From IMG/VR virus record IMGVR_UViG_3300042502_000182, positions 1-42,113 of that record: a stretch of 42,113 nt of DNA, one strand, 5' to 3'. Shown here in pieces: positions 11,101 through 30,146 of this stretch (its first letter is position 1; each line of letters begins with the position of its first letter). A program made the position numbers and the translations under genes. The stretch is from a virus. The notes beneath the pieces are model-generated. The model saw only the letters and a program-made list of their open reading frames with translations. It did not search any database and was not told the DNA's origin.

Positions 11101-11695
11101 CACCATTCTTTGCAGCTAGATAGTTTGTACCAGATCCATAAGGATTACCCATCTGTCCTGGTTGTATAACAATATCTTCTGGACGAACATACTTACGAGT
11201 CTTCTTATTATCTCTAGTACCTGCAGCTTGCGTAATTAGATTACTAATATTTGCTGCTTGCTTTTGTTCCTTTAACTGTTTATTACCTTTAATAACATTT
11301 TGAATGCCACCAACAATAGAAGGAGCACTAGCTAATAATGAATTACCAGCATCTTTAAGATTAGAACTTTTAGTAGCTGTTGTTGCACTAGTTCCTTTAA
11401 GTGCAGCATTAGGATTAACATCAGGGAAATCTTGCATTACACCAAGTTGTCTAGCAAGACTCATTTTATTATTATATCCATTTTCTATAATACCAGAAAT
11501 CTCTCCATACTCAAGAGGAGGAGCTAGATACTCATCATCTAAAGTAGACTCAATGGTTGGTAAAAATTTATTGCCATCCTGAGCTTTCTTTAACTTCTTA
11601 CCATGCTTCTTCATGAAAGCCTCCTCTGTAGGATACTTCTTGTAGAACTCAGCTTCAGTTTTAACTCCAGCAATTTTTAAGATTTGAGCTTTCAT
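8192..11695 (-). CDS. Internal virion protein with glycine zipper and lysozyme-like domain (1167 aa)
   Basis: Several regions can be seen. Residues about 228-307 are very Gly-rich and include a glycine-zipper pattern (LGGIAGTIVGGPLGSIVGSA) able to form membrane-inserting helices. Residues about 380-485 contain the GPSHDNGGMPITF and EVEGGE segments that recur in large Bacteroidetes phage proteins. Residues about 600-800 look like a lysozyme-superfamily domain: INKILDYELKKGSATGHGLSNFG supplies a candidate catalytic Glu, followed by DWAFNTG. A VASP repeat lies near residue 800 and a Gln/Ala-rich helical region fills the last 250 residues. DGG or ADGG turns recur at about 230, 343, 429, 468 and 602. 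By analogy with ejected proteins such as T7 gp16 it may digest peptidoglycan locally during DNA entry. The gene starts one base after the stop of the 799-aa gene. Confidence 0.75.
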   Translation of the reverse strand: MKAQILKIAGVKTEAEFYKKYPTEEAFMKKHGKKLKKAQDGNKFLPTIESTLDDEYLAPPLEYGEISGIIENGYNNKMSLARQLGVMQDFPDVNPNAALKGTSATTATKSSNLKDAGNSLLASAPSIVGGIQNVIKGNKQLKEQKQAANISNLITQAAGTRDNKKTRKYVRPEDIVIQPGQMGNPYGSGTNYLAAKNGAEIQNTFAPNTIYTDQGYTPLNDNSKVKQFADGGGFGGTGLSANYLAGEAGGLGGGLGSLIGGGDFEQTNEGALGSTLGGIAGTIVGGPLGSIVGSALGGAIGGAFGGDRTKQMKQQKQLMQSNLASAAWQNTLQSGQFNSFMEDGGWVSNDWQPQVIAKFGEYDVKDLLKPPHDADMLRAGGHLKEYTPPSERAMYTGKAEDGVQMAMGGDLKVYRGQAETMSYNPYLPDGGETIMFRGPSHDNGGMPITFGENGVEVEGGEPAVKLQDGGSPDGNLVVFGDMFMPGKKQKFKHYAADLSKTEAKQNKIVDKSTSIINDLDVNTEFDKLTLQAANANILGANMKLKDIATKKTEAAALQNAILDTAKEQGLVSAELAKGKIVKDKEAAKMMAKYGTKMTTYADGGSSDPNDPNDAWINKILDYELKKGSATGHGLSNFGYTDWQKLGHAHAPRTRQEAIDYFKQDYLPKVANIPLGLRGRAGDWAFNTGKDPRIPLLLAAGKIKGNAFGTINPSNLSGPRIELAQDPAALDELWNKHSAEISKKENDPAFLKKFDTARRVMYQNINRLPDGSINPAYRNTWVGRTEEMFNEDTPAVASPVASPVASPSVVTPSAPAPYFANPVVNPTGVSSAKWTPSGVTVPNFAASNDAVDARQEMMPELYSPVDMGMYGDIKDIPFTPYDGTFIQKRDVPPVVTEDVVSTPSTTSTKDGKKSNTWKDAAVFASSMMPFLRPSNQEPLDPNQLMGEMYALSNNQLEPVQAQLYNPQLTQPYEISLQDQLNANQSDFNAMQRQLGNNPEALAALAAQKYAANAQVLGTQFRANQAEKARAYEANRQTMNEAQRANLGILDQQFQRQSMARSKTKQEAQTALQSIAAKIAQNNLSNRTLGVYENMYNYRYAPGGQAYNMNAPYSFNIPEVGTGARSTSDIALTEAERLQALADAQKIKEANSKTKKGRNGAIVKAIKNL
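9279..9314 (-). repeat. Three 12-bp direct repeats encoding VASP
   Basis: Two identical 12-base units (GGAGAAGCTACA on the plus strand) and one diverged copy follow each other in frame. They encode PVASPVASPVAS in a linker between the lysozyme-like domain and the C-terminal helical region of the 1167-aa protein. Confidence 0.85.
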
Positions 11696-11696
11696 A

Positions 11697-14096
11697 TTAT
11701 TGGTATTTGTCTAACCAGCCTCCTGGTTGTTTTGTATTGTAATTAGTAAAGTTAGTTAATTGATCCAGTTTTACCAACTGGCTTCCATCCTTAGAGATGG
11801 TCTTAGGTTTAAAGTCAAGTCCTTGTTGATAGTATTTCATTTCACCACCATTCTCGTATGCTCCTAGATTTTTATAAAAATTATCTCCATAAAATTCATC
11901 TCTTTTCTTTTTTCTATATGGGTTATTTTTATACTGACTTTCTGATTTTTTCATCTCTTCCAGTAACTTAGGTTCTATAACAGAATGAGCTTCATGTTCA
12001 ACTGTTCCTGGTATATGATATTGACCAAATCTATTTCTCAACATTATTTCTGAAATAGCCAGTGCTGGTAAATCATTCTTCATCCATTGAATTGTCTTAT
12101 TCAATCTATTATCTTTCATTTGAATATGATGAGCCATTTCACTAACCCAATCTTTTGTACTATCTGCTTGAATAGTTTTAGATGAAGCATCATAATTTGC
12201 AGGAGGTCTACTATCACCACCAACAGTTGTTGCCATTTTAGATAGTAATGAATTTTTATCTACAGGATGCACTTTAGGAAAACCATATTTCTTACCAAGA
12301 TCCATCAGTCCCTCATATCTACCTAATATATTATCTGTTGCATTAGGATAATTGTAAACCATGTCAACAGATTTAGGATCATTATATACAGGATCATCTG
12401 ATGAAATTCCTTGACGATAACCTTCCTCCTTGGTAAGTCTATCTAACATGGTACGATAGAACTCTTCTGTTTGAGGATCTTTAGATCCCACTACAGTTAT
12501 CTCTGGTAACATTCCAGAGTAATAAGTTTTGTCTTCCTTATTCTTTTTTATCTCTTTACCATTCTCTGCAGAAGCTTTTGTCTTCTTAGCGTATGGACCA
12601 TTAGAAGGAATATCTCCTGTACGTGCATACATGAATCCTACAGATCCTGGCATAGATCCTCCCATAGCAAACTGTCCTCCCCATGCAGGAGAATAGTTAC
12701 GTCCCACGTTACTATATCCATCTCCTACAAAGTCTTTAGATATTGATACAGAAGCATCGTTATAGTTTGGTTGTACAGGACCTCCATCATTATATTTCTC
12801 TAACCATCCTCCGTTCTTCTGCTCTGGTTGATTAGCCATTGCAGCAGCACCAACTCCTACAGCTGCAGGAGCAGCCCATAGTCTATTAAATAAGAATGAC
12901 GAACCATTATCATTATTAAATACATCAAAGAATCTTTTATCAACTACGTTTCCAGGTAAACCTTCTCCACCTCTCATGTTTTGAACATCTTTGGCAGTAA
13001 TCGTTTGACTAGGTGATAAATCATACTTCTGTCTAAGTTCACCTATTCTTGCATGCACTTCTGTAGGATCAGCTAAATATGCCTTATAGGCATTCTCTTT
13101 ACCCATTATTTTATCTATCTCCTTAGAAGTTTTTCCACTCTGTCTCAATGACTCCCACTGATTGTAATAATCTAAATACTCAGGTTTAATAGTATTTTGA
13201 ATATCATGAAACTGTCCACTTTCAACTAAAATTGGTTGCCTTAACCAATCATGAAAATTCTCATGACCAACAGTAGATTTTATTTGTGAATGAGAATACT
13301 TAGGGTTTCTAGAAATCCATGTACCAAATCTAGGATATATACTTGCATTTGCTGCATCATCTAAAGGATTAGCAGTATGTCTATAAGACACTCCCATATT
13401 ATCCGCATGAACCATAGCCTTACTACCATAGCTAGTTTTACCTTGCCATATAATTTGTGCTAAATCTTTTGCTTGTTGAGACAAAGGATATAGTTTAGAA
13501 TTTGGATCATAGTTAAGGGAATGTTGCTTGTAACTATGTGAAGTCCAAGGAGCAGTTTGTTCCATCTTATCAAAATCCCTCATCATCTTTTCCTGTGTGG
13601 CAGGATGACTGATCCAATCTTTAGTCCACTGATTACCAGCATCTATTGATTGCTGTACAGGAACTTCTCTAGGAAGAATCTTATCAGCTAACTCATTAAA
13701 GAAATTACCTGTAGATGATATTATTTGTTTATTAGGTGCTGCTACAGTTTTAGCTACTTTAGCAACTTTACTTGCTTTACTACTTGCTTTAGCTGCTTTA
13801 CCTAATAGTCCTGCTCCTACTAAATTTGTAGGATCTAATACAGCATCAACAGCAAATGCAGCATAAGGATTCTGAATACTGAATGCTTGAGAAGGATACT
13901 GATTTTTACCAGTTATCCACTCAGTAACTTTACGTTGAGGATATGACGTAACCTGCCCAAGAGCTTGCATTGCATTATCATCAATATTAGTTGGTGTTTG
14001 CTTTGCTGCTTTATTATATGCAGCTACTTTGGGAGAGACAGTCCAACCACCTTCCTGATATTTATCTAACCACCCTGAAGACTTTTGCTTTGCCAT
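11697..14096 (-). CDS. Double zincin-like internal virion protein framed by WLxKY motifs (799 aa)
   Basis: The first half carries VGHENFHDW (H278, E279, H282), a canonical HExxH zinc-protease motif, followed by PTEVHARIGE near 344-353, which has the right placement for a third ligand. The second half carries SEMAHHIQ (E653, H656, H657) and TVEHEAHSVIE near 699-707. This is the same arrangement, but the first His of HExxH is replaced by Ser, so this copy may be diverged or inactive. A short motif GWLDKYQEGG opens the protein (8-17), recurs in the middle as GGWLEKYNDGG (429-439) and ends it as GGWLDKYQ (792-799). A run of Lys/Ala/Ser at 100-120 is basic. Context suggests an internal or ejected virion protein. 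Peptidase activity is inferred from motifs only. Confidence 0.75.
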   Translation of the reverse strand: MAKQKSSGWLDKYQEGGWTVSPKVAAYNKAAKQTPTNIDDNAMQALGQVTSYPQRKVTEWITGKNQYPSQAFSIQNPYAAFAVDAVLDPTNLVGAGLLGKAAKASSKASKVAKVAKTVAAPNKQIISSTGNFFNELADKILPREVPVQQSIDAGNQWTKDWISHPATQEKMMRDFDKMEQTAPWTSHSYKQHSLNYDPNSKLYPLSQQAKDLAQIIWQGKTSYGSKAMVHADNMGVSYRHTANPLDDAANASIYPRFGTWISRNPKYSHSQIKSTVGHENFHDWLRQPILVESGQFHDIQNTIKPEYLDYYNQWESLRQSGKTSKEIDKIMGKENAYKAYLADPTEVHARIGELRQKYDLSPSQTITAKDVQNMRGGEGLPGNVVDKRFFDVFNNDNGSSFLFNRLWAAPAAVGVGAAAMANQPEQKNGGWLEKYNDGGPVQPNYNDASVSISKDFVGDGYSNVGRNYSPAWGGQFAMGGSMPGSVGFMYARTGDIPSNGPYAKKTKASAENGKEIKKNKEDKTYYSGMLPEITVVGSKDPQTEEFYRTMLDRLTKEEGYRQGISSDDPVYNDPKSVDMVYNYPNATDNILGRYEGLMDLGKKYGFPKVHPVDKNSLLSKMATTVGGDSRPPANYDASSKTIQADSTKDWVSEMAHHIQMKDNRLNKTIQWMKNDLPALAISEIMLRNRFGQYHIPGTVEHEAHSVIEPKLLEEMKKSESQYKNNPYRKKKRDEFYGDNFYKNLGAYENGGEMKYYQQGLDFKPKTISKDGSQLVKLDQLTNFTNYNTKQPGGWLDKYQ

Positions 14097-14097
14097 A

Positions 14098-14964
14098 TTA
14101 CTTGTAAGAGATTTGAGCAGGAGCTATAATGAATTGAGAAATAATATGAGCATCAGACTTGTTGTCTAGAATGTGTCTAATTAATAAACCTTTAGCTCTG
14201 ATTGTATCTTTCTTGAACGAACGTGTAGAATAATCCATGTTCGCTTGGTTGAGAACCTTATCGATTGATAAAGACTCACAGCCAGTTACAAACAAAGGTA
14301 ATGATTTATTTTTAACTACAGACCAGAAATTATTATATTGATAAAAATTATCTGATTTAGTATAAGTAATCGTCTTAGAGTATTCATTGTACATTGGATA
14401 TTGCATGTACGCTTTCATGTTATTCATTGGCTTAGGAACCAATTCTAACATGCCAGAACATTGCTGACCATTGTAAATGATAGCCTTATTGAAATACTGA
14501 TCATCTGTTTGAATCTTAGCATTGTCATTAAATACACCATCAGGGATAGGTAAGTATTTGTACACTGTACTAAAGTCTTTTACATTCTGTAATATCTCAT
14601 CATGATACTTATATGCAAATGGATACTCGATGATATATGGTTCTATGTTTCCATAGTAGGTATTGTAGATTGTTGTGTTAGCTAAGTGCTTCCACATTGT
14701 AGCAGTGTTCTGAGGAGTGAACTGAATAGCAGCTATCTCCTCGATATCAAGTTGCGTAAGAGGCAAGTTCTTTACTGTCTTACATTTGCCAGTAGACTGC
14801 AATATAATAACACTAACCTCATCAGCAACAGTGTATGATACACCATCGATCAGGTCTTGTTTAGTGATATTAGTACCAAGCACATTACCATAGTTATCTG
14901 ATATGGTGAATGGGCCTGTTCTATTACCAGCCTTCTCTAACTTTATGATTACTGTTTTAGACAT
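14098..14964 (-). CDS. Probable adhesin or tail accessory protein with virion-docking N-terminus (288 aa)
   Basis: I chose the ATG at 14964-14962 (MSKTVIIKLEK) because it overlaps the preceding stop by one base (TAATG). The longer frame from 15021 would add a His-rich leader that is only the poly-Thr tract of the upstream gene read in another frame. The first 70 residues (AGNRTGPFTISD, then DGVSYTV and STGKC) match the layout of the N-terminus of the 832-aa adhesin encoded at 27648-30146, suggesting a shared attachment domain. The remaining 215 residues have no recognisable domain; they are rich in Tyr, Asn and Lys and look beta-rich. A receptor-binding role is inferred from the shared domain and location. 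Confidence 0.65.
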   Translation of the reverse strand: MSKTVIIKLEKAGNRTGPFTISDNYGNVLGTNITKQDLIDGVSYTVADEVSVIILQSTGKCKTVKNLPLTQLDIEEIAAIQFTPQNTATMWKHLANTTIYNTYYGNIEPYIIEYPFAYKYHDEILQNVKDFSTVYKYLPIPDGVFNDNAKIQTDDQYFNKAIIYNGQQCSGMLELVPKPMNNMKAYMQYPMYNEYSKTITYTKSDNFYQYNNFWSVVKNKSLPLFVTGCESLSIDKVLNQANMDYSTRSFKKDTIRAKGLLIRHILDNKSDAHIISQFIIAPAQISYK

Positions 14965-16256
14965 TATATTATAGTGGTTGTGGTGGTGGTGGTAGAAAGA
15001 GAACTTAATCCTACTTGCCAATATATCTTGTTATTTTTCTTAATAACAGAATCATAACTCTTTCCAGGAACAGTTGTGTATTTAATAGTAAGTTCGTTAA
15101 TAAAGTTTTTAGGTGTCCCATCCCATGCCTGAATACCTAACTGTTCAGCAACCCAATCTATTCTACAAGCAAGCCCTACAGGTGTCCCATTATTTATTAC
15201 AGCTTGACCAAATACTAATCCTACAATTTTTCTAACACCATTAAAATCAGCAACTAAAGCCGCTCCAGAATCTCCTGGTTCAGCAGCAGAACAACCTACA
15301 TACTTACCAAGAAAAATTATCACACTACTAAATAGACTACCACTATCTGCTCCTTGTAAATCATACCCATTTACAAGTATCTGATCATTATATAGAGTAT
15401 AATAATATAAATTACAATCACCCTCTGCAGCTCCAGTAGTTCTTCCAGACATATATAATGGAATTGACTGATTCAAGGAATATATTTCAGGTGATGTAGC
15501 AAATGGTAATGGTAAGTTATAATCTACTCCATACTGTTTAAATGATTCTGTATTAGAAACATCTGATTCTTTTAAAGATATTAAAGCACCATCTACCCTG
15601 TTAAATATTGAAAAATTAAAATAATTGGGATTAACAGTGGGTACAGCAGGTACATACAATGGAACATATCTAATTACCTGACCTATTTGTAATGCTGGAT
15701 TTGCTGTACAAGTTTCTCCATTCTGATATACATAGTTATCTTTTTCATTTTGAGCAATCTTAGTTAAATCTTGATTCATTGTCATGAACTGATTTTTAAC
15801 AACTACGTGCCCAGCAGTAACACCAACTAAAGCTTGAGATGCTCTATCTACAGCAATAAATCCTAACGTACCTTTCTTACATTCTGTCGGAGAAACAATA
15901 TTGTTTTTAGCACCAATAGATACCCCACCTTTCAAAGGTCTTACTGTGTTTCTATTACCAGGAGGAGTAGTTTGCCAAGCAATACACTGTGTTGGACAAT
16001 TTAGCGTACTAGCATTACTTAGTACTATAACATCTGTTGGATAATATTTATTATCAACTATTACAAAAGAAGGTAATACATCTTCAGAGCTTATTTGATC
16101 TAATGGTAACTTCTCTTTAACTGCAAATGTTACACACTCTTCATCAGTTAATTGTCCATCTTTTATTCTATTTGCAAACATCACACCGATGTCTCTTTTA
16201 TAATATTGAGCAGATAACTCTTTTAAAGCTGGATTAATATTGTTTGAATGTGTCAT
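14964..16256 (-). CDS. NAL1-like trypsin-fold serine protease, copy 3, poly-Thr C-terminus (430 aa)
   Basis: The catalytic triad is readable: His150 in GVTAGHVV, Asp222 in NRVDGALI, and Ser330 in EPGDSGAAL. The first 80 residues (IGVMFANRIKDGQLTDEE, VKEKLPLDQI, PTDVIVLS) match the N-terminal domain found in NAL1-like bacterial serine proteases. After the protease domain, the segment LGIQAWDGTPK and a tail ending in YWQVGLSSLS are shared with the two paralogues. The last nine residues are seven Thr and two Ile, and the stop overlaps the next ATG. The poly-Thr tail resembles linkers that in other proteins of this phage join docking and binding modules, so the enzyme may once have continued into a further domain. 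Its substrate is unknown; it is probably a virion or extracellular enzyme. Confidence 0.85.
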   Translation of the reverse strand: MTHSNNINPALKELSAQYYKRDIGVMFANRIKDGQLTDEECVTFAVKEKLPLDQISSEDVLPSFVIVDNKYYPTDVIVLSNASTLNCPTQCIAWQTTPPGNRNTVRPLKGGVSIGAKNNIVSPTECKKGTLGFIAVDRASQALVGVTAGHVVVKNQFMTMNQDLTKIAQNEKDNYVYQNGETCTANPALQIGQVIRYVPLYVPAVPTVNPNYFNFSIFNRVDGALISLKESDVSNTESFKQYGVDYNLPLPFATSPEIYSLNQSIPLYMSGRTTGAAEGDCNLYYYTLYNDQILVNGYDLQGADSGSLFSSVIIFLGKYVGCSAAEPGDSGAALVADFNGVRKIVGLVFGQAVINNGTPVGLACRIDWVAEQLGIQAWDGTPKNFINELTIKYTTVPGKSYDSVIKKNNKIYWQVGLSSLSTTTTTTTII

Positions 16257-16258
16257 AA

Positions 16259-16561
16259 CTAGTCTATAATATCAAATGTTAAAAACAGTGTACCTATTGT
16301 AGGAGGAGTAGAAACTAATGGAAAAGTTTGTGTTTCATATAATGATTTCACAATAACTGATGTGGCAGAATCAGGGACTTCTACATTCATTACAAAATAA
16401 GGAAGTTCTCCTGGAAGAGATAACACATAATTTTTCATTAAATGATCAGTATATGCTCGTGTTGCATAATTATTTTCATTAACCTGATCATAGTATACAC
16501 TATACGGATTAAAATTATTCTTAACTCCACTAGTTACATAAAAGCTGAAATACTTTGCCAT
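16259..16561 (-). CDS. Small beta-rich protein between protease genes (100 aa)
   Basis: The gene is a short open frame placed 29 nt after one protease gene and 2 nt before the next, ending with TAG, which makes it part of the same operon. I do not recognise the family. The segment VEVPDSATSVIVKS followed by FPL loosely resembles the second half of the docking domain in the 288-aa protein (YTVADEVSVIILQS then LPL). It could be an orphan docking domain, but the match is weak. It has no signal peptide or membrane segment. Confidence 0.6.
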   Translation of the reverse strand: MAKYFSFYVTSGVKNNFNPYSVYYDQVNENNYATRAYTDHLMKNYVLSLPGELPYFVMNVEVPDSATSVIVKSLYETQTFPLVSTPPTIGTLFLTFDIID

Positions 16562-16590
16562 ATATCATTTATTAAAACACTATTGATTAT

Positions 16591-17904
16591 TTACCAAATC
16601 GTTGGCTGTTTGCTTATCATTCCCAATTGCCAGTATTCTTTATTATCAATAGTTTTAGGATTATCAAAAATTGGACCCTCAAGAACTTCGTAATCCATGT
16701 TAGGTATATCTAAAAAAGCTTTAGGTGAACCATCCCAAGCTTGTATTTGTAGTTTTGCAGCAATGTGGTCTATTCTACAAGCAATACCATAATTTCCTGT
16801 ATCACTAGTACTTCCTGCATATAATAGACCAAGTATCTTCCATGTACGTGGACCATCCTTCCAGTTAGGATCAGATGGATTATATGTAGGAACTTTACCC
16901 ATTAAAGCAGATCCTGAGTCCCCACCATTAATTGCTACACAAGTTACATCTGATCGAGTTACTACAATAGTATTGTCATAGGAACTAATAAAAGGATAAT
17001 TTCCAACAAGCATTAAAAAGCCATAATCATCAGAGAACACTTTAAGTCCGCACTCATCTTTCTTAACACCAGTTCTAGCACCTGAACTCCACAATTGTAA
17101 ATCTGTAAAATCCATCAATGCATCTAACTCTTGTGTAGATGCAAATGTAGGAGGGGTATTTATTCCGCCAGGAATATCACTTAACCCAATTTGTTTCCAT
17201 GATTCAGCATTTGTTATAAAAGGTACTCCTTGTTGTGTATCATTTTGATATATTGCAACCATTGCTGCATCAATTTTATTCACAAAAGGAAGTGCAGATT
17301 CTTTATCTATATGAGCAGGCATACCAAATGGAGTATATGTATACCAACTCCAAGCGTCTGTTTTAGGTACTCCTAAAGGAGGTCTTTTTGTATACCTAGA
17401 TAAAAAAGGTAAACCTCCATTATATACACCTCCTGTAACAGGATTAAAGTATGGTGCTATATCTGCAACGTGAGCATTTGTAATAGCAACAATAGCTTGC
17501 GTTGGTGTATGTACGGCAAAAAAACCTAATGTACCGTAGCTTCCAGACATCTGAAATACAGTACCACCTTTAATAGGTCTATTAGCAGTACGATTTGTTG
17601 CACAAGGTACTCCATTAGTAGCATCATAACAACTATAACAACTAGGAGGTAGAGAGCAAGTCATACGTCTGATATCACTTAACTCAGTTACATCTGTTTT
17701 ATATATCACCCCATCTATCTCAATCTCTGAAGGAATTAGATTCTCAGGAGAAATCTCAGATAATGGAAGTTTCTTCTTTACACCAAAGCTTAAGCATTTT
17801 TCCTCTGTTACAATATTATTTGTAATTTTCTTACTATATCCTGCGCCAACAACGTCAGGATTAATCATAAGTATTTGTCGTAATTCTTTTTTTATATTAT
17901 TCAT
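16591..17904 (-). CDS. NAL1-like trypsin-fold serine protease, copy 2 (437 aa)
   Basis: I place the start at ATG 17904-17902 (MNNIKKELRQ), which overlaps the upstream stop by 8 bases; this start aligns with the other two copies, whereas the frame from 17958 adds an unmatched leader. His145 lies in ITNAHVAD, Asp212 in NKIDAAMVA and Ser330 in NGGDSGSAL. The N-terminal domain (VVGAGYSKKITNN, VKKKLPLSEI, YKTDVTELS) matches the NAL1-like family. A Cys cluster CSLPPSCYSCYD around residues 83-92 is specific to this copy. The shared tail LQIQAWDGSPK and EYWQLGMIS follows. There is no signal peptide, so export would be by lysis or virion assembly. Confidence 0.85.
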   Translation of the reverse strand: MNNIKKELRQILMINPDVVGAGYSKKITNNIVTEEKCLSFGVKKKLPLSEISPENLIPSEIEIDGVIYKTDVTELSDIRRMTCSLPPSCYSCYDATNGVPCATNRTANRPIKGGTVFQMSGSYGTLGFFAVHTPTQAIVAITNAHVADIAPYFNPVTGGVYNGGLPFLSRYTKRPPLGVPKTDAWSWYTYTPFGMPAHIDKESALPFVNKIDAAMVAIYQNDTQQGVPFITNAESWKQIGLSDIPGGINTPPTFASTQELDALMDFTDLQLWSSGARTGVKKDECGLKVFSDDYGFLMLVGNYPFISSYDNTIVVTRSDVTCVAINGGDSGSALMGKVPTYNPSDPNWKDGPRTWKILGLLYAGSTSDTGNYGIACRIDHIAAKLQIQAWDGSPKAFLDIPNMDYEVLEGPIFDNPKTIDNKEYWQLGMISKQPTIW

Positions 17905-19249
17905 AATATCCAATTGCTGAAAGTGTAGTGACTCCTGCTTGATAATATATTCTACCATCTATAACTATTTGCTGAGCATCATTTATTCCTGGAGTTACAA
18001 TACTAGGAACAGTATATCCAAAATAACTAGTAACAATAGATCCTAAAGGTTTAACACTTCCATCCCAAGCTTCAATTCCTAATTGTTCTGCAAGTTTATC
18101 AATTCTAGAAGCATATCCAACTGTTTCATTTCCTCCAATAACTAAACCAATAATTTTCCAAATTCCTCCTATTTTTGCAATTAATGCAGCTCCAGAATCT
18201 CCAGCAAGAACAGTAGGTAATCCTGGTGTTATTCTTGAAAATGATATTAAGTTATCAAAATAAACTTCGCCTGGTATTGTATCAGATGTCAAACTAGTAG
18301 TTACCCCCACAGCATCTATTTTTAATCCACACTCAAAACCATGTTTTGTTCCAGTGCCTACACCAGTACTAGATACCTGCGAAGGAGGACTTGATACTAA
18401 TGCATTAAGTTCTGCTGTTGTAGCAAAAGGCATAGGACTGGTTATTTCAGGAATCCCTTTTACTTGATAAGATCTCCAAGAGGGATCATAAAATGGATCA
18501 AGTTCAAGAGCAGGTGCACTTCCAACAAAATCTGGAATAACACATGTATAAGTTTGAGATGTTACAAAATATGATAAACAAGCATCTACCTGATTGAATC
18601 TATTAGGATCATTTTCAGGTTTAACTTTTAATGGTACATAAGATAATACTGCTCCTATATAACTACCTTGTATATTAATTGAAGTAATTTGACCATTAAT
18701 AAAATAAGACTCTGCAACAACAGGATAGTTAAAATTAATATATCCATTAGCAGATATATCTACATAAAATTTATTACCTACTGCCTGTTTATTAACAGTA
18801 GAAGGTTCTGATGGATCATAAAGTAAATGAGCTGCTGTTACACCTACCAATATATTTTTATCTGGATGATAAGCAACAAATCCAAATGTTCCAATATATA
18901 TTCCTTGCTCTCCCGAATCAAAACTTGATGAATTATAAAAAAATCTGTTAATGTAAGACATTCCTGATACTACATATTTTTCTTGAGTAGTACCTGTAGG
19001 AGTAGCTGGACAAGCTGCAAATGAAACTTCTCCAATCTCTACAACATCAGTAACATACGTTACACCATCTATATCTACAGATGTAGGTAACATGTTCTCA
19101 GGATTAGCTTCTTTGATTGTTACACCAAATGTAATTCCTACAGTATCAGTTTGAGTTCCTCCAATAATCTTTTTACCTAAACCAATTGATTTAACTCCTG
19201 GCAAGGTTGATAATTCTCTAAGCTTTTCTTGTATTCTATCTGTTAGCAT
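17897..19249 (-). CDS. NAL1-like trypsin-fold serine protease, copy 1 (450 aa)
   Basis: This is the first of three tandem paralogues, beginning 10 nt after the muzzle gene. His141 lies in GVTAAHLLYD, Asp222 in NQVDACLSY and Ser352 in LAGDSGAAL, so the triad is complete. The N-terminal domain is present (PGVKSIGLGKKI, NMLPTSVDID, YVTDVVEIGE). The conserved tail LGIEAWDGSVK and YYQAGVTTLS closes the protein. The region between His and Asp differs strongly from the other two copies, which suggests different specificities or target surfaces. The placement directly after the muzzle gene suggests a virion-associated enzyme, but this is inference. Confidence 0.85.
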   Translation of the reverse strand: MLTDRIQEKLRELSTLPGVKSIGLGKKIIGGTQTDTVGITFGVTIKEANPENMLPTSVDIDGVTYVTDVVEIGEVSFAACPATPTGTTQEKYVVSGMSYINRFFYNSSSFDSGEQGIYIGTFGFVAYHPDKNILVGVTAAHLLYDPSEPSTVNKQAVGNKFYVDISANGYINFNYPVVAESYFINGQITSINIQGSYIGAVLSYVPLKVKPENDPNRFNQVDACLSYFVTSQTYTCVIPDFVGSAPALELDPFYDPSWRSYQVKGIPEITSPMPFATTAELNALVSSPPSQVSSTGVGTGTKHGFECGLKIDAVGVTTSLTSDTIPGEVYFDNLISFSRITPGLPTVLAGDSGAALIAKIGGIWKIIGLVIGGNETVGYASRIDKLAEQLGIEAWDGSVKPLGSIVTSYFGYTVPSIVTPGINDAQQIVIDGRIYYQAGVTTLSAIGYYE

Positions 19250-19259
19250 ATCTTAGTTA

Positions 19260-22200
19260 TTATGTACTTAAACTTCCAGGAATTACATTAAAGTTAACAT
19301 ATAGCGTGTCTTGATCATAATGAGCTGACGTATATATTGTATTAAGATTCGTGTTAAAGTTTTGGAATCCAACAATATTAAATGATCCTGGACCAGGTGT
19401 AGTCGTTGTAGTAGTTGTAGGAAAACCTGTAGTTGTGGTGGTAGTAGTTGATGAAGATGTAGTTGTTGTAGTAGTTATAGGATAAAGTTCAACAGCCTCT
19501 CCAGCTAATGAACAATTTATTCCAGTGGTAGTAGTTGTTGTAGTAGAAGGAGTTGGAATCTCCGAAATAGCCACAGCAAGTAAATCACAACCTTCGTTAA
19601 GTCCTGAATAGAAGAAGTTATTCTCTGCTATGTAGAAGTTAGGAATGTAGCTATGGAATGAAATCCAGCTCTTTGTATTCATACTGAATGACAAAGTCCA
19701 AGACTTATTGCAGAAGTATCTAATATCAGTTAACTGAACAATCTCTTTAAGAACAGTAGATCCATAGGTATTATTTACATAGTACTCACGTGCAACCTCA
19801 TCATAGAATATCTTACCTATTTGATCTTTCTGAGGGATATAATCAAGTTTAGATATAATCACACGATCATACTTACTATCAAATACACCATGTAGTCCAC
19901 AACCAGTAAAGTGGTTATCTGTATCAGCTTTAGGGAAGTAACGTAATATCTCAAATGCTAAGTGGTCTGTAAAGAACTTATTAAGTCCTGAACCAAATGC
20001 AGATAAGTCTGCAGCTTGATTGCCAGCAATTAAGAATACTTGCCCACGCTTAGCATCAATAGTTATCTGTCCTTGAGGAATCTTTAACAACATCTTGTTT
20101 TGAGATCCTACATAGCCAAGATCTGTCTCAGCAAAGTCAATTGGAGGAGCAGACTTAAATAATGTACTATTACCCAAATACGCAGCTTGAGGATTGCTTG
20201 TATTGATTGTAAGCATTGTGTTATATAACAATGACTTATTCTCAAAACGAGCAAGTACAGCTTTGTTCTGAATACCATCTAGTGCTGTTAAACCACCATA
20301 GTTCTGAGGAAAATCAAAGAACGATGTAGCAGAATAACTTAACCAGCTATTAACTCTACTGTTTGCTTGTGGATCTTGCTGATCTGAATAGATAGCTCTG
20401 AATGGATAATATGTATTACATATCTCTGGTGTCCAATCTACAGGCAAGTGAGAGAAGAAGTTCTCTGTATTCTGTTTAGAGTAAGACACGTTATAGTAGT
20501 ACGTATTATCTTGAGCAATAGGTACAAACGTTTGTTGTAACCATGCATCAGGAATACCAGAACTTACGTGCGGATAGAAGTCTCCTTCTCTATTATTAAA
20601 TGCTTGACGTAAGTCTACATTGATAGAACTCTCACAATAGAACGATGGAATACCATATGCAAACTGGTACATCTTACCAGTGTATACAGCATTACTAGAA
20701 CTAGTAACTACAGAACCTGGACGCAATGTGGTAGTGCTTGTTGTAGTAGGTCCGTTAGTAAAATCAATATTAGTATTACTACAATCTAGATTTGTTGCTT
20801 TAACAGATATAATATTCTGCAAGGTTACACCGTTTGGTGTAGTATAATTACTTTGAATAGATCTAGATGAATGCCAGTATTGAGGATAAGCAATATTACC
20901 AATCTCATCATAGAATATATCTGAATCATCTGGAGCATCCACTCTATTGTCAATAAAGAATGGAAGCTTAGTCTTAAATGCAAACTTACAAATGAATGTA
21001 TCACCACCGAAGAACGTATCTATACCTAATGCATTTCCTCCAAGAATATTCTTTTGGAATCCTGTATCAATAGTTTGATAAGAATATATTTGTCCCCACT
21101 GATTGATGAAACTATTCTTAATAGATGCATAGTAAGAAACTACTGTAGTAGATTCTTGATTCTCAGGATTACCACAACCATTTGTCTTTTGAGAGGCAGT
21201 AAACCTTGTAATGTCTGTAATAAAAGGTTGTGCTGTTACTGGTGATTGTAATGAAGGAGTATCTTTTACAAATGGTAACGGAGTTACAGATACATTATCT
21301 CTTGTGCTTATTGTCTTTAAGTATACAGAAGACTCTCTTTGAAAGTTATTAACATTAAAACTATCACCTACAGATTGTACACCAGGAACAAGATATTGAG
21401 CTAAGTGAAGCTGTCTTTGTTTAATACCTAAATTATTTCCTACAGGAGCAGAATAGTCATAACTAGCAATAGAATTAAACGAGTAAGAAAGATTCTTTCT
21501 ACTAATTGAGTTTAAGAATATTGTTAGATATGCTTGATAGGCAGTAAACATTGCAGCAGCATTAAATAATCCTGCAATGTTAGAAATATTAAAACTAGAC
21601 TGCAACGCAGTGTACTGAATGTCTCCTGTAAGGAATTTATACTGAGCATTATTTTTAACCTTCACAAAATGAGCTTTACCAGCCCCATAAATAGCATTCT
21701 CAACTTTAAGAACATCACCTAAATAAGGTTGTCCAAAAGATGTTTCAGGAGAGTTAAATACATATCTATATTTAGAATCATCTGTACCAAAACCATTTAA
21801 CTCATCTGGATAACATAAAGGATTTCTTCCTGGAACTATTGTTATACTGTAGTCTTCATCACCACTTTCATATTGAGGAGTATAACCTGCAAAAGCTAAT
21901 ACATATTGAGGATTACCATTTGTAACAGTTATTCTTAATTGATTAAGAAAATTATAAGGATCTTGATAAATAAATGTAGTGCTAGATGCAGATGTAAATA
22001 ATATTGTGTCACTTGCAGAAGGTACTGCTGATGTACCATCTGGTAAATTCCAAGTAATTGCTGTATCACCATTAGGAACAGGTCTTGTCAAGGAACAAAT
22101 GTTATTCTGTCCTACAGATACTGGAACAGTTGTTATCTCTCCTGTATTAACATCTGTAATTGTTACAAATCCTGCAACTGTTACAATTAATTTATATAAT

Positions 22201-24068
22201 ACAGAAGTAGCATTATAAGCATTATTTTCTTCAAGAAGAAATGGATCTTTATTAAGATCATTGTAAGGGTAGTTAGGATAGTAATACTCTGTACCCTCAC
22301 GCTTATACTTACCTACGTTACGTAGAATACCTTTAGCTACAATAGACTTATTTGTAGATCTATTACCACGAACAATCTTGTATGCAACAATATCATCTTT
22401 TTGCTCTGCTGTTAAATCAGATAGTTCAATTAAACGATATACTTCATCTGAGTTAATATTTACACCAATAGGAAATACAGCATCACCTGACCGCATAGTC
22501 ACTTCATACTTATTAGCTACAATAGTAGGTATACCACTCTCAAAGATAGGGCTTACAAGAATATCTGGAAACTTATGGTGTCTGATGTATTGATCAGCTA
22601 AATCTCCCCACACTTCAGGATTGCAAGGATACTTATCAGCTGATTCCCAATAAGCAAACTGTCCATATTGATAAGGACCTTTGTAGCCAACCTTATCTGT
22701 AGCAGCTGTGTATTCTGGAGATGTACCACTAACTGATCCAGTGTTGTATATCTTCCAATATGGAGCAGATGCACCATCACCAATAAAGTCAGGATTAGTA
22801 TTAGGAATAGGAGGCTGAACAGACTCAGCATACGTTAGTTTTCTACCAGGAATATGGAAACCATCTGTCTGCTTACCATTCTTTAATAAGAATACAATCT
22901 CAAAAGCATACACTTCATCACGAAGGTATCCTCTTAAGTTAGTAGCATTCAACTCATCAGCATAGTTTTCTGTAGCAGGAATTCTATATGTCTGCCATTG
23001 TAACTGAATCTGATTAGCAATTTTCTGATAGTTTACTCGATCAATAGATGTTAATCCATCCCATACAAGAATGTCTTGCACAGTAGTTAAATCATCAGCA
23101 ATATCGTAATAAGGAAACTTCTCAAAGATATCAGCAATAGTTAACTTGATAGCTTCAGAATTCTGTCCTGTATAAGTAATTTGATCACTTGTATTACCAA
23201 TAAAGTATGTACCAATTAACTCAACAGATGTAATGTTATTAACTGTTTTGATTACAGCTAAATTGAAATATTCAAAGTATCCTGTAGTATCTATATCATT
23301 AATATTTACAACAATAGATCTTCCAACAGGATAGTTGAAATCTAGCGTTGTATTATTAACATTTGCAATAGGTGTAGGATTAGTAACTGAGTAGTACGAA
23401 GAATAAGGTACACCAGTAGCATTAGCGTACTGAATAGCAAACTGATATGTACCAGCAGTAAGATTACCTCCTGTAATAACATCAGTAACTTCTAATGAAG
23501 GAATAGAGAAATTAGGTTGAATCTTTAACTGATTACAATCTAATTGATCTGATGTAACAGTATCACAAACACTATTTCCTACGGCAACTGTGTAAGGAAT
23601 ATTATCAATATCTAAATATCTACGAGGATTGTAACCATCAGTCCAATAAATCTCAGTAGTACAGTTTGTAATCTTATGTACTACCTTGTGTATAGGATAC
23701 TTATCATTAAAGTTTAAACAAGCAGCATTAACTAATGTACGATATACACAGTCATTATTATCCATGTATCCAATCTCACTTTCACCTCCAAGAGGATTAG
23801 TTAGAAAGAATATATGTTTACTCTTCTCTTGAATAAAATGTTCTCCAATTAAAACATAATCTTCAGGAAAGCTAAGGCATAGTTCATTACCTGGCTCATT
23901 CTGATAGTTTACAGAGTCTGAGTCAAAGTTCTCAACAGAAGCATTTAATGCATAGGTCAGCTTACCTTTAGGAACCTGAGCTAAAGTCTGGTCCATATTA
24001 AGACCAGTTTGTGCAGCATTAAAGTTTTGCCTTACGTTCCCTTGATTAGTTGTTTCTTCTCCAGCCAT
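19260..24068 (-). CDS. Muzzle / tail stabilization protein (1602 aa)
   Basis: This is the largest complete gene. Its N-terminus (NQGNVRQNF, GLNMDQTLAQVPKGKLTYALNASV) and the early segment EIYWTDGYNPRRYLDIDNIPY match the long protein that crAss-like phages encode after the tail-ring genes, annotated as stabilization protein and seen as the muzzle at the tail end in the solved crAss virion. The body is beta-rich. A short poly-Thr segment lies near residue 1110. Three poly-Thr tracts at about 1500-1565 separate the last 40 residues (FNIVGFQNF to the end) as a small terminal module. The gene overlaps the upstream ring-protein gene by 23 nt. The three protease genes follow it directly. Confidence 0.85.
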   Translation of the reverse strand: MAGEETTNQGNVRQNFNAAQTGLNMDQTLAQVPKGKLTYALNASVENFDSDSVNYQNEPGNELCLSFPEDYVLIGEHFIQEKSKHIFFLTNPLGGESEIGYMDNNDCVYRTLVNAACLNFNDKYPIHKVVHKITNCTTEIYWTDGYNPRRYLDIDNIPYTVAVGNSVCDTVTSDQLDCNQLKIQPNFSIPSLEVTDVITGGNLTAGTYQFAIQYANATGVPYSSYYSVTNPTPIANVNNTTLDFNYPVGRSIVVNINDIDTTGYFEYFNLAVIKTVNNITSVELIGTYFIGNTSDQITYTGQNSEAIKLTIADIFEKFPYYDIADDLTTVQDILVWDGLTSIDRVNYQKIANQIQLQWQTYRIPATENYADELNATNLRGYLRDEVYAFEIVFLLKNGKQTDGFHIPGRKLTYAESVQPPIPNTNPDFIGDGASAPYWKIYNTGSVSGTSPEYTAATDKVGYKGPYQYGQFAYWESADKYPCNPEVWGDLADQYIRHHKFPDILVSPIFESGIPTIVANKYEVTMRSGDAVFPIGVNINSDEVYRLIELSDLTAEQKDDIVAYKIVRGNRSTNKSIVAKGILRNVGKYKREGTEYYYPNYPYNDLNKDPFLLEENNAYNATSVLYKLIVTVAGFVTITDVNTGEITTVPVSVGQNNICSLTRPVPNGDTAITWNLPDGTSAVPSASDTILFTSASSTTFIYQDPYNFLNQLRITVTNGNPQYVLAFAGYTPQYESGDEDYSITIVPGRNPLCYPDELNGFGTDDSKYRYVFNSPETSFGQPYLGDVLKVENAIYGAGKAHFVKVKNNAQYKFLTGDIQYTALQSSFNISNIAGLFNAAAMFTAYQAYLTIFLNSISRKNLSYSFNSIASYDYSAPVGNNLGIKQRQLHLAQYLVPGVQSVGDSFNVNNFQRESSVYLKTISTRDNVSVTPLPFVKDTPSLQSPVTAQPFITDITRFTASQKTNGCGNPENQESTTVVSYYASIKNSFINQWGQIYSYQTIDTGFQKNILGGNALGIDTFFGGDTFICKFAFKTKLPFFIDNRVDAPDDSDIFYDEIGNIAYPQYWHSSRSIQSNYTTPNGVTLQNIISVKATNLDCSNTNIDFTNGPTTTSTTTLRPGSVVTSSSNAVYTGKMYQFAYGIPSFYCESSINVDLRQAFNNREGDFYPHVSSGIPDAWLQQTFVPIAQDNTYYYNVSYSKQNTENFFSHLPVDWTPEICNTYYPFRAIYSDQQDPQANSRVNSWLSYSATSFFDFPQNYGGLTALDGIQNKAVLARFENKSLLYNTMLTINTSNPQAAYLGNSTLFKSAPPIDFAETDLGYVGSQNKMLLKIPQGQITIDAKRGQVFLIAGNQAADLSAFGSGLNKFFTDHLAFEILRYFPKADTDNHFTGCGLHGVFDSKYDRVIISKLDYIPQKDQIGKIFYDEVAREYYVNNTYGSTVLKEIVQLTDIRYFCNKSWTLSFSMNTKSWISFHSYIPNFYIAENNFFYSGLNEGCDLLAVAISEIPTPSTTTTTTTGINCSLAGEAVELYPITTTTTTSSSTTTTTTTGFPTTTTTTTPGPGSFNIVGFQNFNTNLNTIYTSAHYDQDTLYVNFNVIPGSLST
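19376..19560 (-). repeat. Poly-threonine coding tracts in the muzzle gene
   Basis: Three runs of Thr codons (mainly ACT, ACA, ACC) separated by short Ser/Gly/Pro or unique segments encode STTTTTTTG, ITTTTTTSSSTTTTTTTG and PTTTTTTTPG. They act as linkers before the terminal 40-residue module and are low-complexity DNA that could recombine with other such tracts in the genome. Confidence 0.85.
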
Positions 24069-27647: not shown

Positions 27648-30146
27648 CTATGCTGGACATTCATTTACATATTGATAATTAGTATACTCAAGTTGGAACG
27701 GAGTGAAAGTATTATAACCACAACCATATCCACACTCACTATAGTTAGTTTGCTGATACGGAGCTACTACACTATTAGTAAATTCAGGTATTGTTACTAC
27801 ATACGTTCCTCCAGAACCAGTTGAACAAGAACCAGATGTTGATACACCAAATGTTATTATTACACCACCAAGAGGAGCATTCTTAGGAGTTACACCATCT
27901 AGTTCAAATAAGGAAGCAGTTAATCTATAATAAACATCAGTTCCTGAAGAAGTTACTGAAGTAAAAGGATCAGTACATGTAACTTCTTGACTGTAATCAA
28001 ACTCATTAGTCCACTTAATACATCCTACAAAAGGACAACCAGTTCCTCCAATATTTGAAAGCACAAAATTAGATCCACCTGGGTTAGTGTTTGAAATTCC
28101 AATAACTCGCCAAGGGAATCCATTAGCTCCAACTCTATCATTAATCTCGTATGTATTTATAGGATATGACGTAGAAGTATCAGTTGCATCTGCAACACAA
28201 CTACTTATGGTATACCACTCTAATGTAGGAGCAGCTGTAGTTGTAGTAGTGGTAGTTGTAGGACAACCAGTTAAACCTGTAGGCGAAAGTTCAAAATTAG
28301 ATCCACCTGGATTAGAGTTTGTAATACTTGTAACTCGCCAAATACCTCCATCAGCCCCAACTCTATCATTAACATTATAAGTATCTACAGGATACGATGT
28401 AGAAGTATCAGTTCCACCACCATTACAATTAATTATATTATACCACTCTCTTATAGTGGTAGTGGTAGTTGTTGTTGTAACACAGCTATTTCCACAAGGT
28501 GTAATAGCTCGTGTAAGAGTTAAGCCATTAGCTGCATATGCATTTATTTGACTTTGTGAATATTGTTGTAAACAGAATGTAGTACCTTCACCTGATGGAC
28601 CTACATTTGTAGAATAACTTCCACCATTACACAAAGTACCACTTAATGCAACTGTATTACCACTAGTGTTTATATACTCATATACATAACAATCAAGACA
28701 ATATACGCAACTCTCGTTTGTATTAACTAAACTAATATACTCCGCGTTTGTAGTTGGTGTAGTACCAGTTTTAACACAAATCTGAGGAGATGTTAATGGT
28801 TGTACATTTATAGTTGTAACATTATTATCACAATCTGTATAATCAACATAGTTTGAGAAATCAGGTGAGTAATTAGTAAGTGTCCAGAATGTACACGGAT
28901 AAGGTGATACTGTAGTTGTGGTAGTTGTTGTTGTAGATTCAGAAGGACAAGTGCTTAAACCAGTAGGATTAATAAAACGTTGAGGGAAATTCGCACTATC
29001 GGTAGAAATACTAGTAATACGATAAGTATAGAATGGAGGTTGATTATAAACCGTATCATCTGCTACAATATCATTAACATTGAAGTCTACAACATTAAAA
29101 CGTTTACTATAAGCTGTTATTGCTGGATTATCACATCTAACCATCGTAGCCCAACGTGAGTTTACTAACTCATTACAAGCAATACAATTAGCATATAATG
29201 GATATGTTCTTCTATCAACATAAGATGGAGGAGTACCTACATAAGGAGTAGTTAATGTAGCACAACTGTCTAATGTATCACCACCATAAATAACTTGTCC
29301 AGAAACAGCAGAAGAAGGGACTCTTAGTATAGGAGCATTAAATAGTGATGTACAAAATTGAGCATTCCAATAAGCACCAGGATCTTGTGTAGTAGTTGTT
29401 GTGGTGGTAGTTGTTGAAATACCACATCCTGTAACTTCAAATGATTTAGCTCTTTTGTCTGTTAGGTTATTTTTATCTTGTATAGCTACCCAAAAAATAC
29501 CATTTGGTAAACCAGCTGGTAACCCCCAACTAACACTACTAGGAGTTAATGTAACTGCAGTATCAAAAGGTTCATTAAGTGCCTCTGCCTCTGTGTAATA
29601 TGCATAAACAGATGGATAATACTGACCACTGCCTCCTGAGAACTGACTCATAAGAGCATAAGCCTGATTATTACCAGCACAGCCTTGTACTACAGTAAAG
29701 TTAAGAAGATTTGATGTAGTAGTTGTTGTTGTAGTGGTTGGTGCAGCAGTAGTTGTTGTTGTGGTTGTACTAGTTGATGTACTAGTTGTGCTAGTTGTGG
29801 TTGTAGTGCTAGTAGATGTACTAGTTGTTGTAGTAGTGGTTGTACTTGTACTAGTTGTAGTAGTAGTAGTACTAGTTGGAATAGGTACAGGCCAAGTTGT
29901 AGTAGTAGTAGTAGTTACAGGTAATAATAATATATTAATATCAACTGCTGTATTACATGTACCAAAAGAAACAACACGAACGACAGTAGTACCATTTGGG
30001 ACAACATTGCTTATATACCCTGCAACAAGAGCTGCTTTAGGTACACTTGTTTCAAATGGAATTTCATAACTGTCTACATCTGAATATAGATCAAAGTTAG
30101 GTCCAGTATTGGCACCAGCTGTCGTTAGTATTATTTGTACAATCAT
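27648..30146 (-). CDS. Modular poly-threonine adhesin with docking domain (832 aa)
   Basis: Residues 1-75 form a small domain (IILTTAGANTGPNFDLYSD, then VAGYISNVVPNGTTVVRV) that resembles the N-terminus of the 288-aa protein and occurs widely on phage adhesins of Bacteroidetes. A long Thr/Ser linker covers 78-145. Further poly-Thr runs near 245-253, 405-412, 557-564 and 629-637 separate about five beta-rich modules. Two adjacent modules (567-628 and 643-705) are clear repeats, sharing DTSTSYP, INDRVGA and NPGGSNF; a third, more distant copy lies at 336-400. Many modules end in GCP or contain paired Cys, suggesting disulfides. The gene is flanked by the fibre genes and by tandem hairpins. Receptor or glycan binding at the virion surface is inferred. 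Confidence 0.75.
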   Translation of the reverse strand: MIVQIILTTAGANTGPNFDLYSDVDSYEIPFETSVPKAALVAGYISNVVPNGTTVVRVVSFGTCNTAVDINILLLPVTTTTTTTWPVPIPTSTTTTTTSTSTTTTTTTSTSTSTTTTTSTTSTSTSTTTTTTTAAPTTTTTTTTSNLLNFTVVQGCAGNNQAYALMSQFSGGSGQYYPSVYAYYTEAEALNEPFDTAVTLTPSSVSWGLPAGLPNGIFWVAIQDKNNLTDKRAKSFEVTGCGISTTTTTTTTTQDPGAYWNAQFCTSLFNAPILRVPSSAVSGQVIYGGDTLDSCATLTTPYVGTPPSYVDRRTYPLYANCIACNELVNSRWATMVRCDNPAITAYSKRFNVVDFNVNDIVADDTVYNQPPFYTYRITSISTDSANFPQRFINPTGLSTCPSESTTTTTTTTVSPYPCTFWTLTNYSPDFSNYVDYTDCDNNVTTINVQPLTSPQICVKTGTTPTTNAEYISLVNTNESCVYCLDCYVYEYINTSGNTVALSGTLCNGGSYSTNVGPSGEGTTFCLQQYSQSQINAYAANGLTLTRAITPCGNSCVTTTTTTTTIREWYNIINCNGGGTDTSTSYPVDTYNVNDRVGADGGIWRVTSITNSNPGGSNFELSPTGLTGCPTTTTTTTTAAPTLEWYTISSCVADATDTSTSYPINTYEINDRVGANGFPWRVIGISNTNPGGSNFVLSNIGGTGCPFVGCIKWTNEFDYSQEVTCTDPFTSVTSSGTDVYYRLTASLFELDGVTPKNAPLGGVIITFGVSTSGSCSTGSGGTYVVTIPEFTNSVVAPYQQTNYSECGYGCGYNTFTPFQLEYTNYQYVNECPA
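28032..28448 (-). repeat. Tandem protein-module repeat in the adhesin gene
   Basis: Two copies of a module of about 62 codons (28263-28448 and 28032-28220) are joined by a poly-Thr linker. The DNA is also visibly similar, for example the segments encoding DTSTSYP and NPGGSNF, so the duplication is fairly recent. Confidence 0.8.
29712..29915 (-). repeat. Long Thr/Ser microsatellite-like tract
   Basis: About 68 codons encode almost only Thr and Ser, broken by WPVPIP and AAP. The plus strand reads as GTA/GTT/GTG triplets and gives a spurious poly-Val frame. The tract links the docking domain to the first binding module. Confidence 0.9.

Follow-up and report, generated by a model that had tools for sequence, protein, structure and literature searches.

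Three adjacent NAL1-like trypsin-fold protease homologues in an appendage gene slot of a crAss-like phage

The window analysed here is a stretch of 42,113 nucleotides (nt), positions 1 to 42,113 of the IMG/VR virus record IMGVR_UViG_3300042502_000182, and it carries three adjacent genes, P1, P2 and P3, whose products are, as predicted from their sequences, serine proteases of the chymotrypsin/trypsin fold (clan PA, S1-like). A first-pass annotation made from the letters alone had described three neighbouring paralogues with full catalytic triads in the tail region of a crAss-like phage, and both parts of this description are confirmed by our computational analysis. The window holds part of the structural gene region, which encodes a muzzle (expect value, E, 8.7e-40), ring 1 (1.4e-6) and ring 2 (4.2e-18) proteins, a crass major capsid protein (E 8e-29) and a portal protein (P22_portal, 1.6e-14), and on the basis of these capsid, muzzle and ring genes the phage is crAss-like (Crassvirales). 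A second record, IMGVR_UViG_3300042486_000026, is identical (100%) to the window's record over the 11,069 bases compared and probably represents the same phage population.

The protease genes are read from one strand in the order muzzle, P3, P2, an open reading frame (ORF) of 100 amino acids (aa), P1 and a conserved 288-aa gene (Table 1), and they are tightly spaced: 10 nt separate the muzzle gene from P3, P3 and P2 overlap by 8 nt, 29 nt lie between P2 and the 100-aa ORF and 2 nt between the latter and P1, while the P1 stop and the start of the 288-aa gene overlap by 1 nt. The three ORFs were first called at 430, 455 and 450 aa for P1, P2 and P3, with the P2 frame extending over 16591-17958. 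An earlier idea that P1 is joined to the next ORF by a frameshift in a poly-Thr run was dropped, as the 288-aa gene starts at a separate ATG, which overlaps the stop of P1, and such a fusion is further disfavoured by the many kin of that gene that are 288-290 aa long.

Triads and predicted fold of the three proteases

P1 to P3 align end to end, with 34% identity of P1 to each of the other two when just the three are aligned and 32 and 30% in a deep alignment, and all three match the 'protease' profile phrog_20754 (E 3.3e-13, 8.7e-11 and 1.5e-5), a 324-position profile of the 'other' category that covers P2 and P3 only partly; their likeness is therefore not a matter of chance. His150, Asp222 and Ser330 (P1 numbering throughout) are invariant across the three copies, with GDSG around the Ser. 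As the first-pass annotation had noticed, the loop between His and Asp (153-216) is the region in which they are least alike (4-12 identities per 51-56 aligned columns, with 19-30 gap columns), and a Y(W/Y)QxG tail is common to P1, P2 and P3. Across the wider protease family the QxG tail lies just before the C-terminus or before a fused extension, with the Q kept in 115 of 116 and the G in 116 of 116 rows that have a letter there. The Pfam Trypsin profile (PF00089) scores P1 at 18.1 bits, under its curated cut-off of 20.6, and does not match P2 or P3 at E 0.1, which we regard as a question of detection threshold rather than as a biological criterion. No obvious signal sequence was found by a crude hydropathy check.

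Structure modelling was done for P1 alone, the fold of P2 and P3 being extended to them from the alignment. The model, built on a 58-row alignment, has a mean predicted local distance difference test score (pLDDT) of 86.3 and a predicted template modelling score of 0.87, and supersedes a poor one from a 10-row alignment (pLDDT 57.7). Foldseek lists rice NAL1 in every one of the top 34 PDB rows for this model (lowest E 6.3e-14), and a second aligner superposes it on NAL1 8pmi_B with a Z score of 31.5 over 329 residues (model residues 2-387, root-mean-square deviation 3.4). One-domain bacterial proteases align with residues 106-380 only (Z about 19), and the double beta-barrel of the fold is recovered by Foldseek against 2sfa (E 1.8e-7). 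At the level of sequence, a profile of the family also finds NAL1 as its best match among PDB sequences (E 1.2e-6), and the Pfam NAL1_N domain is recognised in 6 of 58 members (threshold E 0.01, lowest value 6.2e-7). P1 is thus confidently modelled as a two-domain NAL1-like trypsin-fold protease, in line with the trypsin fold assigned at first reading. The N-terminal domain proposed there to resemble that of NAL1-type proteases is borne out by fold and family profile; Pfam NAL1_N, by contrast, gives no match to P1-P3 at E 0.1, and we therefore term the window copies NAL1-like rather than members of the NAL1 family.

NAL1 (NARROW LEAF 1 of rice; PF25608 NAL1_N plus a trypsin domain; structures 7y77, 8pmi and 8has) superposes on the P1 model with both of its domains, but the two proteins are only about 16% identical and the P1 tail past residue ~387, with its YWQxG, is not covered by NAL1. 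NAL1 is moreover a plant gene, whereas P1-P3 stand in a phage appendage context. The catalytic barrel of P1 is also like that of the Streptomyces and alpha-lytic type proteases (2sfa, 2alp; Z about 19 over 183-192 residues), which unlike P1 have no NAL1-type N-terminal domain and which are secreted with a pro-region.

Table 1. Features of the window discussed in the text (all positions are those of the window; aa, amino acids).
Feature	Position	Strand	Remarks
799-aa protein	11697..14096	-	near the cassette
Conserved 288-aa gene, closes the slot	14098..14964	-	N-terminal anchor-type domain, E 4e-31
P1, third protease homologue, 430 aa	14964..16256	-	modelled, pLDDT 86.3; Thr run at C-terminus
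P1 catalytic Ser330 codon (GDSG)	15267..15269	-	from alignment; coordinate computed from ORF
P1 catalytic Asp222 codon	15591..15593	-	from alignment; coordinate computed from ORF
P1 catalytic His150 codon	15807..15809	-	from alignment; coordinate computed from ORF
100-aa ORF between P2 and P1	16259..16561	-	
P2, second protease homologue	16591..17904	-	likely ATG at 17904 (MNNIKK...)
P3, NAL1-like trypsin-fold protease homologue, 450 aa	17897..19249	-	first gene after the muzzle gene
Muzzle gene, opens the slot	19260..24068	-	variable C-terminal part with poly-Thr runs
832-aa fibre-like protein	27648..30146	-	anchor-type domain as in slot genes (1.5e-15); many poly-Thr runs

Carriers, gene neighbours and exchange of the protease

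Relatives of P1-P3 were collected by two IMG/VR profile scans (the best 80 of 83 and the best 80 of 230 relatives) with one further locus from a capsid scan. Together with the window's record (L001) they make up at least 113 loci with at least 120 protease ORFs, which fall into 76 clusters when grouped at 95% identity. As L172 and L223 belong to a single contig, this corresponds to at least 112 contigs with at least 119 ORFs, and the residue counts given here include one relative twice. Among the 117 ORF rows from outside the window, His and Asp are present in 116 (one is truncated) and Ser in all 117, leaving the triad intact in each of the 116 relatives that can be scored. Single-sequence searches are nearly blind for this family: by tblastn, neither P1 and P3 (at E up to 1e-3) nor the proteins of L003, L065 and L079 (at E up to 0.01) had a match among 50,697 deposited phage records, a plasmid search with one query found none among 72,556 records, and P3 as a lone query against viral contigs recovered only the window's own phage. 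A scan of cellular-genome contigs with the pattern GDSGSAL[IVC]A had a single hit, located on a contig of 3,708 bases from a metagenome-assembled genome named Bifidobacterium breve; this may be a stray viral contig. The scan no more than suggests that the family is absent from cellular genomes, as its single narrow pattern misses even P1 and P3. In BFVD a relative is found in Virus NIOZ-UU157 (E 1.1e-34, 30% identity). The relatives are phage genes.

Their carriers are diverse. At least two core genes close to those of the window accompany the protease in 15 of the 76 clusters, at least two distant crass core genes in 5 and one such gene in 2; the remaining 54 show none in the stretch examined, a group that includes kin of the window's phage, for instance L017, which has its capsid gene in another part of the contig. 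Contractile-tailed phages are represented as well: L003 has a tail sheath gene, and one neighbour matches the tail sheath stabiliser T4 gp15. Single copies thus occur in other crAss-like contigs, and the absence from every related phage that the first-pass annotation had named as a refutation does not apply. The triplet itself, which it had suggested looking for in other Crassvirales contigs, was met only in the window's phage: among 47 records searched in full this phage has three copies, L020, L022 and L031 have two adjacent ones, L081 has two far apart and the other 42 have one. One L081 copy (9911-12940 of a 323-kb contig) is fused to an FGE-sulfatase-like domain (E 5e-16), and the second lies 46 kb away.

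Gene neighbourhoods were compared in 47 loci thinned by hand (near-identical loci and some fragments were dropped, some similar ones kept), to the exclusion of the window's record; gene calls came from a simple longest-ORF script, and starts and gaps are accordingly approximate. The upstream neighbour is co-directional with the protease in 43 of 44 loci and the downstream neighbour in 46 of 47, and the upstream gap is at most 15 nt in 38 of 43 same-strand cases. The neighbours have median lengths of 891.5 aa (upstream) and 378 aa (downstream). Disregarding genes under 150 aa, and with the window's flanking genes placed under second neighbours or 'other', a 24-residue stretch of at least 75% Thr/Pro/Ser occurs in 30 of 40 upstream neighbours versus 25 of 359 other genes (25 of 33 versus 16 of 99 when only genes of at least 400 aa are considered) and in 16 of 42 downstream neighbours. 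A Pfam scan of neighbours of at least 150 aa took in 33 of the 39 upstream genes, 33 of the 41 downstream ones and, in addition, two genes of the window. It gave upstream matches to LRR_4, LRR_EndoS, TIG, fn3, Fib_succ_major and subtilase S8 in one member each of 33, some of which may fall on the same protein, and downstream (35 members) DUF285 in three and LamG, CBM_4_9, Gp10_C, S8, LRR, an ice-binding fold and T4 gp15 in one each. The two subtilase (S8) homologues, one upstream and one downstream, place an unrelated protease fold in a similar position. Some relatives are themselves extended, the protease ORF exceeding 600 aa in 10 of the 47 loci. Seven of 11 extended ORFs have an above-cut-off domain in the long C-terminal extension (DUF285 in three, and Gly_rich_2, TIG with LamG, PBP and FGE-sulfatase), and four have none, PKD and Cohesin appearing only under their cut-offs. 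A LamG domain that we had read in L115 was unsupported by Pfam and was discarded.

The genomic setting is best resolved among the kin of the window's phage, for which we used the best 80 of 505 capsid matches and the best 80 of at least 598 muzzle matches. The window's capsid protein is 95-97% identical to those of the 80 kin listed, and its muzzle is 57-66% identical to 79 of the 80 listed, the remaining one being 100% identical over the part compared. Between the muzzle gene and the 288-aa gene, these 80 muzzle loci have nothing in 41 cases, anchor-domain genes in 31, other genes in 1 and an unscorable arrangement in 7; the slot is hence empty or anchor-filled in 72 of the 73 scorable loci, and a protease lies there in 0 of 80. 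The anchor-filled slots share an anchor-type domain of ~75 aa, and in 28 of 31 they hold a single gene with a poly-Thr/Ser run. Variation extends to the muzzle itself, which ranges from 1487 to 2024 aa in these kin (78 ORFs, some possibly cut by the ends of the loci) and whose C-terminal parts, in the three that were read, are variable and poly-Thr-linked. Outside the 80 listed, L169 has a muzzle (65% identical), one protease, a 583-aa gene and a homologue (60%) of the 288-aa gene in a row, and therefore has the protease in the same slot as the window. The L169 protease (9929-11176) directly follows a muzzle of 2202 aa; the 583-aa gene behind it has the muzzle as its best match in the window (68%), a match that may reflect low complexity, as poly-Thr is present.

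Among 39 kin contigs longer than 60 kb, chosen by length, a protease was found anywhere in just one, that of L017. The absence from the other 38 speaks for an accessory, host-adaptive role, and the earlier impression that such enzymes are unusual for crAss-like phages is supported. The L017 protease marks a second variable slot, in which it is flanked by poly-Thr fibre-like genes and a DUF5856 gene; the latter is present in 30 of the 39 contigs, and a protease in one (L017's own) of the 20 such regions read. (For genes first read as 'Dps' and 'GT', Pfam gives DUF5856 for the former and nothing for the latter.) This second setting is common to seven protease loci (L016, L017, L030, L031, L165, L168 and L170, of which L030 and L031 carry the same proteases), and a third, around a Gp10_C tail-fibre gene, is seen in L018, the L052 group and L172/L223. 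The protease is thus one occupant of slots beside muzzle or fibre genes whose usual content is anchor-plus-linker genes, and in the window it is present three times. Judging from their make-up, these slot genes may be adhesins; the few of them tested gave no Pfam match above cut-off. In this environmental crAss-like group the capsid protein is nearly fixed while the occupants of hypervariable appendage slots change.

Divergence of the copies and changes at the cleft

The window copies are highly diverged: their terminal branches measure 1.10, 1.69 and 1.91 changes per column, versus a median of 0.16. A single clade for the three long-branched copies is not rejected (approximately unbiased test, p 0.514), and they may share their descent. 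N148A, S332A and A350G are common to P1 and P3, which hints at a shared ancestor or at convergence. These three positions hardly vary in the relatives, and neither does 324, which lies six residues ahead of the catalytic Ser: Pro occupies 324 in 114 of 115 rows, Ser 332 in 117 of 117, Ala 350 in 115 of 117 and Asn 148 in 114 of 116. At 324, 332, 350 and 148, P1 has Ala, Ala, Gly and Ala and P3 a gap, Ala, Gly and Ala, while P2 is altered at 324 alone, to Ala.

Of 50 conserved columns outside the triad, 12 belong to the cleft set. P1 is changed in 6 columns (4 of them in the cleft), P3 in 10 (6 in the cleft, or 5 if the gap is not counted) and P2 in 6 (1 in the cleft); no relative row has more than 1 cleft change (170 rows, repeats included), gaps being scored as changes for the window copies and not for the relatives. 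Fisher p values (0.024 for P1, 0.826 for P2 and 0.007 for P3) are descriptive, because the cleft set was drawn up after some of the changes were known. Given the kept triads, the simplest reading is that P1 and P3 have altered specificities, with relaxed constraint as the alternative, and the cleft changes in these two copies, with the divergent His-Asp loop, agree with the first-pass suggestion that divergence of the copies concerns specificity.

Possible roles of the proteases

The explanation that we prefer, and to which we give about even chances, is that of an exchangeable virion-appendage protease that was tripled in this phage, diverged in specificity and cuts host-surface proteins at entry. 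P1-P3 would be part of, or attached to, the virion appendages that contact the receptor, and the protease would be an exchangeable module of appendage gene slots in which relatives keep adhesin-like anchor-plus-linker genes. At adsorption, it would cleave host-surface proteins (the receptor, or surface-layer, gliding or capsule-associated proteins), and this cleavage would give access through the surface or lead to committed entry of the phage. Tripling of the module, with the catalytic residues kept and the cleft positions of P1 and P3 changed, may then have led to different specificities. An appendage-borne protease is the most economical account of the coupling and fusion to adhesion-type modules, the exchange with anchor-plus-linker genes, the near-identical kin that lack the protease and the unchanging catalytic residues. 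The first-pass annotation had left the function open between cleavage of host-surface proteins, virion maturation and defence of the particle; genome context favours the first of these and does not prove it.

Several observations weigh against this explanation. None of P1-P3 has an adhesion domain, and a profile of the slot anchor-type domain reaches only E 1.1 with P2 and does not report P1 or P3 at E 10, which leaves their attachment unexplained. Most neighbours of the relatives have no Pfam match at E 1e-4, and two downstream members each match DNA_pol_B, its exonuclease domain and RNase_H_2. P2, with a single altered cleft column, gives no support for a changed specificity, the cleft set was fixed when the changes at 324, 332 and 350 were already known, and relaxed constraint could be an alternative cause of the long branches. 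NAL1 is an intracellular regulator of plants; the closest solved relative therefore gives no hint of a role at the surface, and the NAL1-like architecture is uninformative on the target.

The main rival holds that P1-P3 are maturation or assembly proteases that, during assembly, cut phage appendage proteins (fibres of neighbouring genes, the C-terminal extension of the muzzle or Thr-rich linkers) or themselves. The tight coupling to large linker-rich genes throughout the family and the conserved QxG tail before the C-terminus or the fused extension would fit such a role, and three copies could serve different neighbours; we nevertheless judge it rather unlikely, since 38 of the 39 long kin contigs manage without a protease at capsid and muzzle identities of 95-97% and 57-66%, showing that core maturation is independent of it. 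The S1-like positions (assigned in chymotrypsin numbering by motif) furthermore lack the His expected for a Gln at the first substrate position, on which ground 3C-like self-cleavage at the QxG tail was rejected as a reading of its own and kept only within the maturation hypothesis. In a crassvirus structural atlas, which describes the muzzle as a hexameric tail-tip gatekeeper, a term search finds no 'protease', 'cleav' or 'proteol' (PMC10172136), which also argues against maturation, though phiCrAss001 may lack the gene. A role inside the infected cell or at lysis, by which the enzymes would degrade proteins of host defence or regulation, or would act on host proteins upon release, would agree with the lack of an obvious signal sequence and the intracellular site of NAL1, but sits poorly with relatives fused to DUF285, LamG, TIG and glycine-rich domains and with genes in appendage slots, and we hold it to be improbable. 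More improbable still, to the point of being hard to sustain, is a trypsin fold that serves as a binding or structural module without catalysis: the gene slots are shared with adhesin-like modules, yet triad and GDSG are kept in every scorable member, the highly divergent P1-P3 included, and would be needless for a binding fold.

Like phage tail-associated depolymerases, P1-P3 are enzyme genes of a hypervariable appendage region that are exchangeable with binding modules; the difference is that they are predicted to be proteolytic and not glycan-cutting. Phage entry enzymes have been studied mostly as glycan depolymerases and peptidoglycan hydrolases. Beyond the window's phage we propose, tentatively and with less than even confidence, that a class of tailed phages from the environment, both crAss-like and contractile-tailed, may enter their hosts by proteolysis, with a NAL1-like protease as a plug-in of tail-tip and fibre slots that is fused or coupled to lectin-like partners. 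In the window's phage this plug-in would have grown into a repertoire of three enzymes of different cleft chemistry, and cleavage of surface proteins would take the role of polysaccharide depolymerases. A phage family in which intact proteases lie next to adhesion-type modules, or are joined to them, would indicate that protein surfaces act as barriers, and it would offer natural proteases with differing clefts. Three such enzymes in a slot that is empty or holds a probable attachment gene in close relatives suggest that certain phages may gain entry by cleaving proteins of the host surface. A term search of a Crassvirales review for protease, peptidase, trypsin and proteol gave nothing (PMC10136315), and we found no report of trypsin-like proteases of crAss-like phages in the literature covered, which leaves out many subscription-journal papers. 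Fold and kind of enzyme are thus known, and a phage appendage module of this type, or its tripling, was not found in the literature searched.

Some further features of the region are recorded here. The 100-aa ORF that sits among P1-P3 is weakly like the slot anchor domain (0.0045) and resembles the N-terminus of a 1372-aa protein in L023 (2.3e-6). Pfam and PHROG searches with the 832-aa fibre-like protein gave no match. Runs of 5-9 Thr are numerous in this protein, in the muzzle C-terminus and at the end of P1, and poly-Thr runs also lie at the joints of the kin's variable slot genes; such simple Thr repeats could act as joints for module exchange. Third-position guanine-plus-cytosine content is 0.09-0.17 in the cassette, 0.13 in the fibre-like gene, 0.21 in the muzzle gene and 0.36 in the capsid gene, and gives no clear sign of the cassette's origin. 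Among deposited phages the muzzle has its best match in a cyanobacterial phage, Leptolyngbya phage Lbo-JY46 (33.5% identity at 78% coverage), which ranks above Cellulophaga phage phi17:2 (27.3% identity), and the host phylum of the group is thereby left open. The 799-aa protein encoded near the cassette, possibly a variable cargo protein, has no match in Pfam or PHROG; it contains WLDKY/WLEKY motifs at residues 9, 431 and 794 and a zinc-peptidase-like HExxH motif (HENFH) at residue 278, and HExxH recurs in 13 of its 52 kin of at least 300 aa, whose lengths range from 301 to 2042 aa.

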